The translations under genes were made by a program, and so were the position numbers. The notes beneath the pieces are model-generated. The model was not told the origin of the DNA. It did no database searches and worked only from the letters and a program-made list of their open reading frames with translations. Shown here piece after piece: positions 5,944-34,905 of a stretch of DNA of 64,000 nt. Origin of the DNA: an uncultured Acetatifactor sp. (GTDB lineage Bacteria > Bacillota > Clostridia > Lachnospirales > Lachnospiraceae); assembly GCA_947586055.1 (NCBI GenBank), contig CANPXL010000007.1, forward strand, positions 1 through 64,000. Direction: 5' to 3'. Every line of letters starts with the position of its first letter. Positions within the stretch are counted from its first letter, which is position 1.

Positions 5944-7236
5944 ATGATTTATATTGCAGATAACATATTCAATTATCTGATATATCTATTTATAATTCAT
6001 TATGGGTTTAGGATCAATCCCAGAAAAAACAGACTTTTTGTTGGCGCTTCTGTAATAATTGTACTGTCTGCAGGCGCTTTCAACGCATACTATGACGTGA
6101 ATTCTCCGATGGTCTACATTCTTTGGAGTGTGCTTTCTGTTATTTTGTTTTTTGAGGATCGTTTCGTCCATTTAATGATAGTAAGCGTTTCCCTCATGTA
6201 TTTTACCGGGATTATAGATACATTCAGCGTTATGCTGATACAGGTTGTGATGATAGGCGGAGGGATTACCGGCACAGATATTGCATGGTGGATGGAGCCT
6301 GCCTATCTTCTCTCATTTTTCATATATCTTTTAGTTTATTGGCAGATTTTAAAAAAACATGAAGTTTATTTGTGTGATATAGAGCTAAAATACAAGTTCG
6401 CGCTTTTGATTCAGGGCAGTATTTTTCAAATGTTCTACAATTTTGTCTTTGTTTTCTTTAACGAAAATCATGCTATGTATGGCTGGGATGCTTATGCAGT
6501 GTTTTTTATCAGTATAACAGGAGTAATCTATTCTGTTTTTCTCACGCTCAGCCTGGCCGTGAAAAATGTATTGTCGGACAGGCAGAACAGGGAACTCCAA
6601 TCTTTTATGGATATGCAAAAACAGCAGTACGATTATCAGCTGCAGCAATCCGTGGCTGTACGGCGTTTTAAACATGATCTGGTCAATCATATTGGCGTTC
6701 TGAGGGAGCTGTTAAATGAGAAAAAGACAAAAGAAGCCAAAGAATATATTGATACGATCTGGAGTGTTCAGAATGAGTTTGATCTGAAGATTCATACAGG
6801 AGACAGTTTTCTTGATATCATTGTAAATTATTATTCGTATTTGGCTGGAAAGGAAAAGGTAGAATTTACAGTCTCAGGCAGGCTCACCGAAAAACTTCCT
6901 CTCGAGATGTTTGATCTCACCACATTGGTTGGAAATATACTGCAAAATGCTTTTGAGGCGGCATTAAAAGCGGATGTGCCAAAAATACATGTCGAGCTCA
7001 TAGAACATACGAAAGAAATATTTATAGTCGTCGTCAATAGTACAGACAGGGCGGTAAAGAATAAAAAATTTTTTGTGACTTCCAAAAAGGACAAAAGAAA
7101 CCACGGGTTTGGTCTGAAAAATATTGCTGCAACAGTTCAAAAATATCATGGCGAATACTATATGGAGTCCGTGGCGGAAGACGGAGAAGCATGGTTTAAA
7201 ATCAGCATTGCCATACCCAGGGAGGAAAAGGCATGA
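5944..7236 (+). CDS. AgrC/ComD-like sensor histidine kinase with GHKL ATPase domain
   Basis: Multiple N-terminal TM segments, H-box 'RRFKHDLVNHIGVLRELL', N-box 'LVGNILQNAFEAA', G-box 'NHGFGLKNI'. Confidence 0.9.
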   Translation: MIYIADNIFNYLIYLFIIHYGFRINPRKNRLFVGASVIIVLSAGAFNAYYDVNSPMVYILWSVLSVILFFEDRFVHLMIVSVSLMYFTGIIDTFSVMLIQVVMIGGGITGTDIAWWMEPAYLLSFFIYLLVYWQILKKHEVYLCDIELKYKFALLIQGSIFQMFYNFVFVFFNENHAMYGWDAYAVFFISITGVIYSVFLTLSLAVKNVLSDRQNRELQSFMDMQKQQYDYQLQQSVAVRRFKHDLVNHIGVLRELLNEKKTKEAKEYIDTIWSVQNEFDLKIHTGDSFLDIIVNYYSYLAGKEKVEFTVSGRLTEKLPLEMFDLTTLVGNILQNAFEAALKADVPKIHVELIEHTKEIFIVVVNSTDRAVKNKKFFVTSKKDKRNHGFGLKNIAATVQKYHGEYYMESVAEDGEAWFKISIAIPREEKA

Positions 7237-7937
7237 AAATCGGTATTGTAGAGGATGAAGCGGTATGGAGGGATAAGATACAGGGTATTATTGAAAGATA
7301 TTGCAGGGATAAAAATATTCCATTTCAGATCAATTCTTATGGTAATGGAATGGATTTTATGAAAAATTCAGATGCAGACCTGTTGTTTCTGGATATTGAA
7401 CTGGCAGAGGGGGAAGATGGTTTTCAAATCGCAGAACAACTGATGCATGATGGAAAGAAATGTAAGGTATGTTTTTTGACTTCCCATACGGAGCTTGCAA
7501 GATCAGGATATAGGGTGAATGCTTTCCGGTATATAGACAAAAGGCATTTGGAAGAAGTGGGCGAGGCACTGGATTCTTTTCTGAAAACAAAGATTCAGGA
7601 TCGGATGATTTCCTGTCATGATACCGCGGGGGGACAAATCAGGATAAATTTGAATGAGCTTCTTCTTGTTGAAACGTATGGAAGAAAATTAAGATACCTT
7701 ATGTTTGATGGGAGGGAATATTTTTGTGAAGGGAAAATATCGGAAGCCGCACGAAACTTATCTCCATTTGGTTTTTCTCAGACACATCGGTCGTATATTG
7801 TCAATTTGAAATATATTGAAAAGGCACACAGCCATGAGGTTACCCTTTGCAATGGATTAAAGGTAATGATCGGAAGAGCCCATAGTGATGAGTTCAAGAA
7901 GGAATTTTTTAAGTGGAGAATGCGGTTTGACAACTGA
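7233..7937 (+). CDS. LytTR-family response regulator (AgrA/ComE-like)
   Basis: Receiver 'IVEDEAVWRDKI...LLFLDIELAEGEDG'; C-terminal LytTR 'LLLVETYGRKLRYLMFDG...GFSQTHRSYIVNLKYIEK'. Overlaps the kinase by 4 bp. Confidence 0.93.
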   Translation: MKIGIVEDEAVWRDKIQGIIERYCRDKNIPFQINSYGNGMDFMKNSDADLLFLDIELAEGEDGFQIAEQLMHDGKKCKVCFLTSHTELARSGYRVNAFRYIDKRHLEEVGEALDSFLKTKIQDRMISCHDTAGGQIRINLNELLLVETYGRKLRYLMFDGREYFCEGKISEAARNLSPFGFSQTHRSYIVNLKYIEKAHSHEVTLCNGLKVMIGRAHSDEFKKEFFKWRMRFDN

Positions 7938-9882: not shown

Positions 9883-11136
9883 ATGGAGATCAGAAGAGAT
9901 GCGTACCTTGAACAGTTAAAAATAAGAAAAGATAATGGTATGATCAAGGTCATCACGGGAATCAGAAGATGTGGCAAGTCATTTCTGTTATTTGTGCTGT
10001 TTAAGAAGTATTTATTGGAGAACGGCGTGGATAGGGAACACATCATTGAGATTGCATTGGATGGTATTGAGAATGAGGAACTGCGGGATCCCAAGAAGTG
10101 TTATCAGTATATCAAAGACGCAATGAAAGATGATCAAAAGTATTATCTGCTCTTAGATGAAGTACAGTTTATGCCACGATTCGAGGAAGTGCTGAACAGT
10201 CTGCTGCGCATAAGCAACATTGACGTATATGTGACTGGCAGCAATTCTAAGTTTTTATCAAGCGATATTGTAACCGAATTTAGAGGCAGGGGGGATGAGA
10301 TCAGAATTTATCCGCTGTCCTTTGCGGAGTTCTACGCGGCTTTTGATGGAGATTATGACGATGCCTGGGAGGAATATATGACATACGGCGGACTGCCGCA
10401 GGCAGTACAGTTTACCGAAGAGCGTCAAAAGGCGGAGTATCTTAAAAATATGTTTACCAATGTTTATATAAAGGATGTGGTAGAGCGGAACCGGATTCAG
10501 AATGATAATGAAATTGGAATTTTGGCAGATATTCTTGCATCTGCCATAGGTTCACCGACCAATCCGACTAAAATATCAAATACCTTTAAGAGCGAGCAGG
10601 GAATCACTTATAGCAACAAAACCATATCCAATCATATAGATTATCTGGAAGAGGCTTTTTTGATTTCTAAGGCGGAGCGGTATGACATTAAAGGCAGAAA
10701 ATATGTGGGAGCAAATCTGAAATATTATTTTACGGATATCGGTCTTAGAAATGCCAGATTGAACTTTAGGCAGCAGGAGCCTACGCATATTATGGAGAAC
10801 ATTGTTTATAATGAGCTGCTTGTGCGGGGCTGCAATGTGGATGTCGGTATTGTGGATGTATTCGAGAAGAATAGTGAAGGAAAAAGGGTTCATAAACAGT
10901 TGGAGATTGACTTTGTAGTCAATCGGGGCAGTCAGAGGTATTATATTCAGGTAGCTTATGACATGACTTCCGAGGAAAAACAGACCCAGGAGTTTCATTC
11001 GTTTAGAAATATCCCGGATTCATTTAAGAAGATTTTGATAGTAAATGGAAGCCAAAAACCTTGGAGAAATGATGAAGGATTTGTGATTATGGGTATGAAA
11101 TATTTTCTGCTCAATGCGGACAGTTTGGAATTTTAA
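9883..11136 (+). CDS. AAA ATPase with DUF4143-type C-terminus
   Basis: MEIRRDAYLEQLKIRKDNGMIKVITGIRRCGKSFLLF (Walker A), YYLLLDEVQF (Walker B), VTGSNSKFLS; SD AAGGAGTGG. Confidence 0.88.
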   Translation: MEIRRDAYLEQLKIRKDNGMIKVITGIRRCGKSFLLFVLFKKYLLENGVDREHIIEIALDGIENEELRDPKKCYQYIKDAMKDDQKYYLLLDEVQFMPRFEEVLNSLLRISNIDVYVTGSNSKFLSSDIVTEFRGRGDEIRIYPLSFAEFYAAFDGDYDDAWEEYMTYGGLPQAVQFTEERQKAEYLKNMFTNVYIKDVVERNRIQNDNEIGILADILASAIGSPTNPTKISNTFKSEQGITYSNKTISNHIDYLEEAFLISKAERYDIKGRKYVGANLKYYFTDIGLRNARLNFRQQEPTHIMENIVYNELLVRGCNVDVGIVDVFEKNSEGKRVHKQLEIDFVVNRGSQRYYIQVAYDMTSEEKQTQEFHSFRNIPDSFKKILIVNGSQKPWRNDEGFVIMGMKYFLLNADSLEF

Positions 11137-11195
11137 GACAGAAAACGACTCGGCGTGTTCCCGGGGAACAGGTTTATTTATAAATGAGAAAGAGG

Positions 11196-11224
11196 TTGCA
11201 ATCGTCCGTTGAAACAGATATAGT
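11196..11224 (+). promoter_or_regulatory. Sigma-A promoter of the attenuator-like leader
   Basis: TTGCAA (11196-11201), 17 bp, TATAGT (11219-11224). Confidence 0.6.
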
Positions 11225-11258
11225 AATTGTAAATCAAAGCGGAAGGAGCGGACAGTTT

Positions 11259-11288
11259 ATGAGAAAAAAATATATTATGGCTCAGTAG
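11259..11288 (+). other. Nine-codon leader ORF (MRKKYIMAQ*) with a good SD
   Basis: GGAAGGAGCGGACAGTTT-ATG; the TAG stop lies in the loop of hairpin GCTCAG-TAGT-CTGAGC. Confidence 0.45.
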
Positions 11289-11349
11289 TCTGAGCTTAAA
11301 ATAAAACGAAGGGTTAAGCTCGGATGAATCTTCCATGAAAAAAGGAGGA
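11280..11349 (+). promoter_or_regulatory. Alternating hairpins and SD-sequestering stem (putative translation attenuator)
   Basis: Stem A GCTCAG(11280-11285)/CTGAGC(11290-11295); mutually exclusive stem B GAGCTTAA(11292-11299)/TTAAGCTC(11314-11321); stem C TCTTCC(11329-11334)/GGAGGA(11344-11349), which covers the SD of the next gene. Confidence 0.5.
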
Positions 11350-11353
11350 TCCT

Positions 11354-12379
11354 ATGAGTTATGACAGAGCAGAGGAAATTCTGCCGGAAGATCTGATCAG
11401 GGCGATCCAGCAGTATGTAAGCGGGAAAAGCATATACATTCCCTGCAGAGAGAAAAAGAGCTGGGGAAGCCAGACAAAGACCCGCCAGTATTATCAGAAG
11501 AGAAATGAAGAAATACGCCGGAAATATGCAGGCGGAATTGCGGTAAAATCCCTTGCGGAGGAATATTCGCTCTCGGAGAAAAGCATTCAGAGGATTGTGA
11601 GGGCTGGCGCGCTGCCGATAAGGGAGATGCATTCCGACAGAAGTGTACGGGAAGGTGGCGGAAGGGAGATGGACATGAAAACACAGGAAGAATATTTACA
11701 GGGACTCCGGCGATGGCTTCGGGATACGGAGGATGAGCCTCTGGAGGAAATGGCGTCTTTTTTTGAGAAGCGGCTGGACGACTATGAGGAGCGTATGTCC
11801 GTCTGGGAAAAATCCTACCGGCTGGTTGCCCAGTCGATACCGGGCGAATGCCGGAAGATTCTGGACCTGGGATGCGGCACCGGCCTGGAGCTGGACCAGA
11901 TCTGGAAAATAAATCCGGATATTGAGGTGACGGGCGTGGATCTGAGCCGGGACATGCTGGACAAACTGCTGGCAAAACACCCGGACAAGCGTTTTACCGC
12001 CGTATGCCAGGATTATTTTCAATACGATCCCGGCCGTGAACAGTGGGACGCCGTGATTTCCTTTGAAAGCCTGCATCATTTCCTGCCGGAGCGAAAAAAG
12101 GAACTGTATGAGAAAATTTACCGCAGCGTAAAGGTCGGCGGTGTTTTTATCCTGGGAGATTATATCGCCTGCTGCGACGAGGAAGAAGCGCTTTTACGGG
12201 ACGTCTATCTGAGACGGAGAAAGCAGTCCGCGATTCCGGAGGATCAGTTTGTCCATTTTGATATCCCGCTGACCATGGAGCATGAGACGGGCCTGCTGCG
12301 AAGCGTTGGATTTCAGATCGAGAACGTTATGGATGAGGATGCGGCGGTCATTGTATGTCGGAGGAAGGAAGCCGGCTGA
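11354..12379 (+). CDS. CD3324-like/Mor-type HTH domain fused in frame to a class I SAM-dependent methyltransferase
   Basis: N-terminus 'MSYDRAEEILPEDLIRAIQQYVSGKSIYIP...IRRKYAGGIAVKSLAEEYSLSEKSIQRIVR'; C-terminus 'CRKILDLGCGTGLELDQI...VTGVDLSRDMLDKL'. Internal ATG at 11669 (MDMKTQEEYLQG) preceded by GGAAGGGAG. Confidence 0.8.
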   Translation: MSYDRAEEILPEDLIRAIQQYVSGKSIYIPCREKKSWGSQTKTRQYYQKRNEEIRRKYAGGIAVKSLAEEYSLSEKSIQRIVRAGALPIREMHSDRSVREGGGREMDMKTQEEYLQGLRRWLRDTEDEPLEEMASFFEKRLDDYEERMSVWEKSYRLVAQSIPGECRKILDLGCGTGLELDQIWKINPDIEVTGVDLSRDMLDKLLAKHPDKRFTAVCQDYFQYDPGREQWDAVISFESLHHFLPERKKELYEKIYRSVKVGGVFILGDYIACCDEEEALLRDVYLRRRKQSAIPEDQFVHFDIPLTMEHETGLLRSVGFQIENVMDEDAAVIVCRRKEAG

Positions 12380-34748: not shown

Positions 34749-34793
34749 ACAACATCGGAATCCAAAAAACCATCAGACGGGTTTTCTGTCATT

Positions 34794-34890
34794 CTGCTTC
34801 CTTACGCCGGTATTATCCGGTTCAAGTAGTGAGGGTTAGAAATGCGTTTTCTTTGCATCTCAATCTCAGCGATGTGCTCCCCTAGCGGTT
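34794..34890 (-). ncRNA. TPP (THI-box) riboswitch
   Basis: Minus strand 'TAGGGGAGCACATCGCTGAGATTGAGATGCAAAG...TAACCCTCACTACTTGAACCGGATAATACCGGCGTAAGGAAGCA' matches conserved THI elements. Confidence 0.97.
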
Positions 34891-34905
34891 ATTTTGTTTA
34901 CGGAT

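Follow-up and report, generated by a model that had tools for sequence, protein, structure and literature searches.

The leader upstream of an HTH-methyltransferase gene in the window (the whole 64,000-nucleotide stretch of DNA analysed here) is very probably a ribosome-stalling translation attenuator, in which a conserved leader peptide and competing RNA helices control the release of the downstream start codon. Predicted relatives of this switch precede genes of the CD3324 family in more than 100 gut-bacterial species, mainly Clostridia, often with neighbours of kinds that can modify antibiotics or expel them. The attenuator is widespread; it is new in the genes that it regulates, in switching a start codon, and in its occurrence as paired leaders, while its principle is known.

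Leader and promoter region

The promoter, the leader ORF, and the four-segment switch fall within 11196–11365. The elements of the leader and its surroundings are located in the window as follows.

11156–11170, forward strand: terminator-like hairpin 3' of the upstream AAA_14/DUF4143 ATPase gene, predicted by consensus match only
11164–11201, forward strand: conserved box GGGAACAGGTTTATTTATAAATGAGAAAGAGGTTGCAA, overlapping the -35 element, derived from aligned upstream regions (window and L048–L164)
11196–11224, forward strand: promoter TTGCAA-17-TATAGT, predicted by consensus match; TTG..A/TATAAT is conserved in relatives
11241–11248, forward strand: SD of the leader ORF, GGAAGGAG
11259–11288, forward strand: leader ORF of nine codons, MRKKYIMAQ-stop (ATG at 11259, stop TAG at 11286–11288)
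11280–11285, forward strand: segment 1, GCTCAG, codons Ala8-Gln9, pairing with CTGAGC at 11290–11295
11290–11299, forward strand: segment 2, CTGAGCTTAA, common to helices 1:2 and 2:3
11314–11323, forward strand: segment 3, TTAAGCTCGG, whose partner is segment 2 or the start codon
11328–11350, forward strand: SD hairpin ATCTTCC:GGAGGAT (arms 11328–11334 and 11344–11350, 7 pairs), covering the SD of the downstream gene
11354–11360, forward strand: segment 4, ATGAGTT, the start-codon region of the downstream gene; ATGAGC in nearly all relatives
11354–12376, forward strand: regulated gene, encoding a CD3324-family HTH (residues 3–82) and a class I SAM methyltransferase (about residues 105–341)

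The terminator-like hairpin after the ATPase gene suggests that a separate transcription unit starts with the leader. Helix 1:2 consists of six perfect pairs enclosing the stop codon in a four-base TAGT loop, while helix 2:3 comprises 10 pairs, including one G-U. In helix 3:4, AGCTCG (11317–11322) pairs with TGAGTT (11355–11360), giving AGCUCG:UGAGUU in the RNA. Since segment 3 can pair either with the start codon or with segment 2, this is the classical four-segment arrangement in which helices 1:2 and 3:4 alternate with helix 2:3. The SD hairpin appears to be under selection, since its arms pair better within their own locus (-7.5 kcal/mol) than when swapped between loci (-6.7 kcal/mol; 0 of 2000 shuffles).

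An earlier note on this DNA had described a sigma-A promoter, a 9-codon ORF with a strong SD, and a stop codon in the loop of the first stem, and all the parts it described were recovered in the sequence with small corrections. The two stems that it considered perfect and mutually exclusive do exclude each other and helix 1:2 is perfect, but helix 2:3 contains a G-U pair, and the stretch shared by the stems is 11290–11295 rather than 11292–11295. The stem TCTTCC/GGAGGA, supposed to hide the SD of the downstream gene, is present and extends to seven pairs, but it is formed in every modelled state. The range assigned to the switch, 11196–11353, ends short of the decisive pairing of segment 3 with the start codon, which had been missed. 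RNA folding, proposed there as a check, gave -28.3 kcal/mol for the window leader with z = -2.1 relative to shuffles; this value is modest by itself, so the case rests on comparison, and it is conservation that settles the reality of the switch.

The box overlapping the -35 element has the conserved form GGARCAAGTTTRTTTATAA-N-AATGAGGTTG in the aligned upstream regions. Where CD3324 is the first gene, a loose pattern of it was found in 59 of 81 loci; among the remaining loci it was found in 3 of 22 (Fisher p = 6e-7, a value inflated by relatedness of the loci). The box may be an autoregulatory operator to which the CD3324 HTH protein would bind.

Conservation of the window-type switch and its leader peptide

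Scanned against 397 genomes of the family, a 26-base pattern with up to three mismatches matched in 13, and the reversed pattern used as a control in none; 12 of the 13 matches lie about 75 bases upstream of a CD3324 gene. A wider pattern matched at least 117 stretches in named genomes, nearly all of Lachnospiraceae or other Clostridia. The 106 usable loci among the matches listed, hereafter type A, were found with a search pattern that fixed part of segments 1 to 3, and their stems are so highly conserved that they show little covariation of their own. Helix 1:2 is paired in 99.6% of cells (86 distinct leaders), helix 2:3 in 100% of cells across type A leaders, and helix 3:4, in which AUGAGC is complementary to the type A segment 3 (AGCUCA), in 98.4%. 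The downstream gene starts with AUGAGC in 101 of the 106 loci, with AUGAGU in four and AUGGGC in one. AUGAGC is also kept in all 19 type A loci whose first gene is not CD3324, with differing third codons.

An ATG-started ORF of 8–9 codons in the same register and with the same end is present in 105 of the 106 type A leaders, the usable loci among the matches listed, and SDs resembling gaaaggag precede it in most leaders of the set. The type A consensus is M[RKTC]x[RK][YV]V[IMNSK]AQ-stop, and the C-terminal motif [RK][YVLF][VI]xAQ-stop occurs in 72 of 84 distinct leaders. At codon -4 (Val), 1007 synonymous versus 909 nonsynonymous pairwise differences were counted, while codons -3 and -5 to -8 show no such excess. 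A leader ORF with its own SD and conservation at the level of the peptide are thus found together, as in ribosome-mediated translation attenuators. Some leaders (MFREPQKAQ, MIGNAQ, MTGKDVSAQ) have no RYV core; sensing may therefore not depend on the peptide in every case.

Macrolide-type arrest leaders, such as ErmDL, carry a +x+ motif. This motif ([RK]x[RK]) was considered and rejected for the present leaders, being found in only 40 of 84 distinct type A leaders.

Type A leaders also occur in two bins labelled Treponema and Paludibacteraceae (L101 and L125), which may reflect contig mis-binning or transfer.

A divergent switch with covarying helices

An unbiased set of 80 CD3324 homologues was chosen by protein similarity alone. 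Those without the type A switch mostly carry a divergent one, type B, with leaders such as MKRYVMFA-stop. A covariance model, R3, trained on 30 type B leaders, matches 52 of the 80 homologues on the sense strand, half of the 52 lying outside the training set. Homologues thought to be leaderless had been intended as controls for AUGAGC; most of them carry type B, so that this control turned into evidence.

The stems of type B are TTGCATAGC...GGCTATTGCAA, GCAnnGGCTAT with ATAGCCnnTGC, and ATAGC with the GCUAU of AUGnGCUAU. Across the 30 leaders, 28 double-change cells were counted in helix 1:2 and 20 in helix 2:3, values reached in 0 of 500 shuffles each, and sliding the partners by 1–3 columns left far fewer of them. 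RNAalifold finds the type B helix 2:3 unprompted. The fixed bases at the start codon are, in each type, those that can pair with its own segment 3: UGAGC in type A and GCUAU, with base 4 free, in type B. The core R(-6)Y(-5)V(-4)[I/M](-3) stands at an equal distance from the stop in both types, although their stem letters are completely different. Two mutually exclusive helices are thus both selected, as seen from the pairing in type A and, independently, from the covariation in type B; the covariation among homologous leaders that the earlier note had proposed to look for is present for both helices in type B and scarce in type A.

At the level of the order, model R1 had matches in 12 of 295 genomes, and in the class sample in 2 of 338; the numbers for R3 were 34 of 200 at the level of the family and 1 of 299 in the phylum sample. 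The sole match in the latter (L316) has type B stems, a CD3324 gene, and a class I methyltransferase. The single hit among 299 phylum genomes indicates that the switch occurs chiefly in Clostridia and closely related bacteria. Within the genus of the window its distribution is patchy, the leader being absent from several sampled genomes and present in another. A search of plasmids, phages, and viral contigs gave no leader match and thus no sign of the leader travelling on those elements.

No recognisable switch was found for a subgroup of CD3324 proteins with MKY starts (e.g., L199, L226, L235, L255). Different upstream hairpins (CATGCAGA...TTCTGCA and similar) precede the CD3324 paralogues with MKY-like starts in L247, L251, L252, L257, L259, and L261–L264, and these may represent a third, different switch. 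In L182 (860–1120), a type B leader stands before an apparently broken DUF1062 gene with an early stop after 16 codons.

Mechanism of the switch and alternative explanations

The accessibility of the start codon was computed in three states: without a ribosome, with segment 1 covered, and with segments 1 and 2 covered. In the window, the probability that the start codon is open was 0.26, 0.89, and 0.36, respectively; the means for the 106 type A loci were 0.36, 0.77, and 0.34, the state with segment 1 covered, corresponding to a stall, being more open in 99 of them. Computed accessibility thus describes an off state that hides the start codon and an on state that frees it. The SD is equally accessible in every modelled state. 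Freeing of the start codon by coverage of segment 1 with an unchanged SD points to translation attenuation exerted at the start codon. Toggling of the SD by the hairpin described in the earlier note was rejected, as no change occurs between modelled states; since the on state is predicted to retain the hairpin, induction may be partial.

Without an inducer, ribosomes would translate the 9-codon leader and leave, allowing helices 1:2 and 3:4 to form, so that helix 3:4 would lock the downstream start codon and the adjoining hairpin would cover the SD. A ribosome stalled at the [R/K]-Y-[V/I] core (codons 4–6, positions 6–4 before the stop) would, with its leading edge, cover segment 1 and the stop codon while leaving segment 2 free. 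Segment 2 could then pair with segment 3, releasing the start codon, and only then would the HTH-methyltransferase protein be made. With codon -4 in the P site, the leading edge of the ribosome would, by arithmetic with the usual footprint, extend about four bases beyond the first nucleotide of the stop codon, to the start of segment 2, in agreement with stalling at the conserved Y-V pair. The most likely cause of stalling would be an antibiotic that targets the ribosome, or a translation stress of similar kind. The product, a CD3324-type DNA-binding protein, would probably also control its own promoter via the -35 box. The layout of a ribosome-stalling attenuator, recognised earlier from the window alone, is borne out by the conserved leader peptide and the competing, covarying helices.

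The trigger of the same switch could also be a general slow-down of translation, as caused by a shortage of charged tRNA or by inhibitors of many unrelated kinds, and not one specific drug acting through the nascent peptide. Any ribosome delayed at codons 4–6 would then act, as proposed for the Escherichia coli uORF toiL, a precedent for a multipurpose uORF (PMC12121999), and leader peptides indeed differ among clades (RYV[IM], LIIF, PVYF, NPIVIV), some having no clear arrest motif. However, that the spacing between the RYV[IM] core and the stop is constant in two RNA types with unlike stems suggests specific nascent-chain arrest in most clades, and there is no run of codons for one amino acid of the kind seen in amino-acid attenuators; we consider a general trigger possible but rather unlikely. 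Alternatively, the RNA could mainly be a binding site for a translational repressor encoded in the operon (CD3324 or the zinc-ribbon-like DUF1062), the ORF merely keeping register. Related attenuators do precede both CD3324 and DUF1062 genes, and relatives without CD3324 beside the leader still have DUF1062. Nevertheless, this explanation is improbable, given that the leader ORF, SD, and start codon are kept in 105 of 106 loci with conservation of the peptide itself, and that a sequence-specific RNA-binding protein would not easily tolerate the complete difference in stem letters between the types. The genome of the window gave no DUF1062 match, although the control genomes likewise gave none.

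Some ABC-F leaders, e.g., those of msrD and vmlR, use transcription attenuation (PMC10314930, PMC9226507), which would require one of the leader hairpins to be an intrinsic terminator. This is very improbable here: in the window, neither helix 2:3 nor helix 3:4 nor the SD hairpin is followed by a U-tract, a terminator scan of 11100–11420 detected only the hairpin at 11156–11170, upstream of the promoter, and the alignment shows variable A-rich sequence after segment 3. That the leader is a chance remnant without function, an option raised in the earlier note, would fit the modest folding z-score of the window taken alone but is hardly conceivable in view of conservation in more than 100 species and the covariation of two alternative helices; as far as conservation goes, that option is refuted. 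Translation attenuation by a stalled ribosome is therefore the preferred reading.

The regulated gene

The N-terminal 82 residues of the regulated protein belong to the CD3324 family (NF040785, 101.6 bits versus a cut-off of 65), with an additional weak match to Mor-like activators (PF08765); compared with both, the window protein adds a fused class I methyltransferase. The gene had been noted as an uncharacterised class I methyltransferase, and while that fold is present, the product is primarily a CD3324-family HTH protein. The fusion of HTH and methyltransferase occurs in three loci (the window, L127, L135). In the near relatives L055 and L099 these are two separate genes overlapping by ATGA, homologues of the methyltransferase with 66–78% identity are separate genes in relatives, and the gene order in L314 is CD3324, methyltransferase, DUF1062. 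CD3324 is also fused to GNAT (L056, L128, L158) and DUF2441 (L088).

Only general class I methyltransferase models of Pfam and NCBIfam match the methyltransferase, and its predicted structure is nearest to MM_2633 (3dtn) and to CysG and BelI, the O-methyltransferases of cystargolide and belactosin synthesis (PMC11408123). The Erm/Cfr-like character attributed to the system in the earlier note is not upheld for the enzyme, as Pfam, NCBIfam, and structure comparison gave no membership in the rRNA methyltransferase families RrnaAD or radical-SAM Cfr. An assignment to the anti-phage system MADS (PADLOC) was rejected, as only the methyltransferase fold matches part of the 492-position mads_2 profile, rather than a whole mads_2 protein accompanied by its system partners. 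In the part of the literature that was searched, beyond which earlier work may exist, neither CD3324 nor these leader sequences are described, and papers naming DUF1062 look unrelated; no function is given there for either protein family.

Gene company and DUF1062 leaders

Proteins of the GNAT, DUF2441, beta-lactamase-fold, methyltransferase, MFS, and ABC-F types are kinds known from antibiotic resistance. Matches to GNAT (33 genes), DUF2441 (10), the beta-lactamase fold (5), and methyltransferase models (4) were found among 62 neighbouring genes selected from the loci, with most DUF1062 genes left out. DUF2441 belongs to the ADP-ribosyltransferase clan (PMC7955679). In four closely related loci (L072, L090, L132, L150) a gene for an Lsa-like ribosome-protection ABC-F protein ends 17–20 bases upstream of a DUF1062 leader; the one tested, that of L072, scored 440.8 bits with NF000355 against a cut-off of 380. 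In L134, a gene for an MFS transporter lies upstream of the leader. This resistance-type company provides circumstantial evidence for an antibiotic or translation-stress operon and is the basis of the inducer class proposed above.

Full-length DUF1062 genes have their own attenuator with related RNA logic and the peptide MTTPVYFA-stop or close variants (L297, L302, L305, L307, L309, L310), and in five cases (G024, G045, G082, G099, G122) such a leader follows a CD3324 leader within about 600 bases. The predicted structure of DUF1062 (mean pLDDT 81) gave no fold match in the PDB; to our reading, which has no Pfam support, its C-terminus resembles S4 RNA-binding domains.

Tentatively, and with somewhat more doubt than belief, we propose that CD3324–DUF1062 operons constitute an unrecognised inducible regulon of Clostridia for translation stress or antibiotic response. 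Its consecutive genes would have separate nascent-peptide sensors, RYVM-type before CD3324 and TTPVYF-type before DUF1062, so that different inhibitors would be read by different leaders, and the HTH would be repeatedly fused to a resistance enzyme (methyltransferase, GNAT, or DUF2441). If true, many gut and rumen Clostridia have in common an inducible system not described before, with a sensor that is recognisable from the DNA. The switch would offer a route to what these bacteria sense and to the roles of DUF1062, DUF2441, CD3324, and the acetyltransferases and methyltransferases, and two classes of leader peptide per operon would be a natural experiment in how nascent-chain sequence sets drug specificity.

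Comparison with known attenuators

The erm, cat, and cfr translation attenuators are four-segment leader switches. The present leader resembles them in its short ORF with an SD of its own, the predicted stall within the leader, and the alternation between an off state with helices 1:2 and 3:4 and an on state with helix 2:3. In contrast to them, the start codon rather than the SD is switched, the regulated operon encodes an HTH protein or DUF1062 rather than an rRNA methyltransferase, and the leader is very short (8–9 codons), with its stop codon inside helix 1:2. With the msrD and vmlR attenuators of ABC-F genes it would share the sensing of a drug-stalled ribosome by a leader peptide, and Lsa-like ABC-F genes adjoin it in the four relatives mentioned. 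However, the ABC-F gene there precedes the leader rather than following it, and msrD and vmlR include transcription termination (PMC10314930, PMC9226507), whereas no terminator is present here. The uORF toiL of the Escherichia coli topAI-yjhQ operon, at which a stalled ribosome frees a blocked ribosome-binding site (PMC12121999), is a possible model for a response to many drugs, although no sequence relation is evident and the host and regulated gene are different. Rfam gave no match to the leader at gathering score, the best sub-threshold hit being an unrelated scaRNA (E = 0.76).

Elsewhere in the window, a TPP riboswitch (34782–34893, reverse strand) scores above the Rfam gathering score, and positions 5944–7937 of the forward strand, by reading of the ORFs only, encode a sensor kinase followed by a LytTR-looking response regulator.
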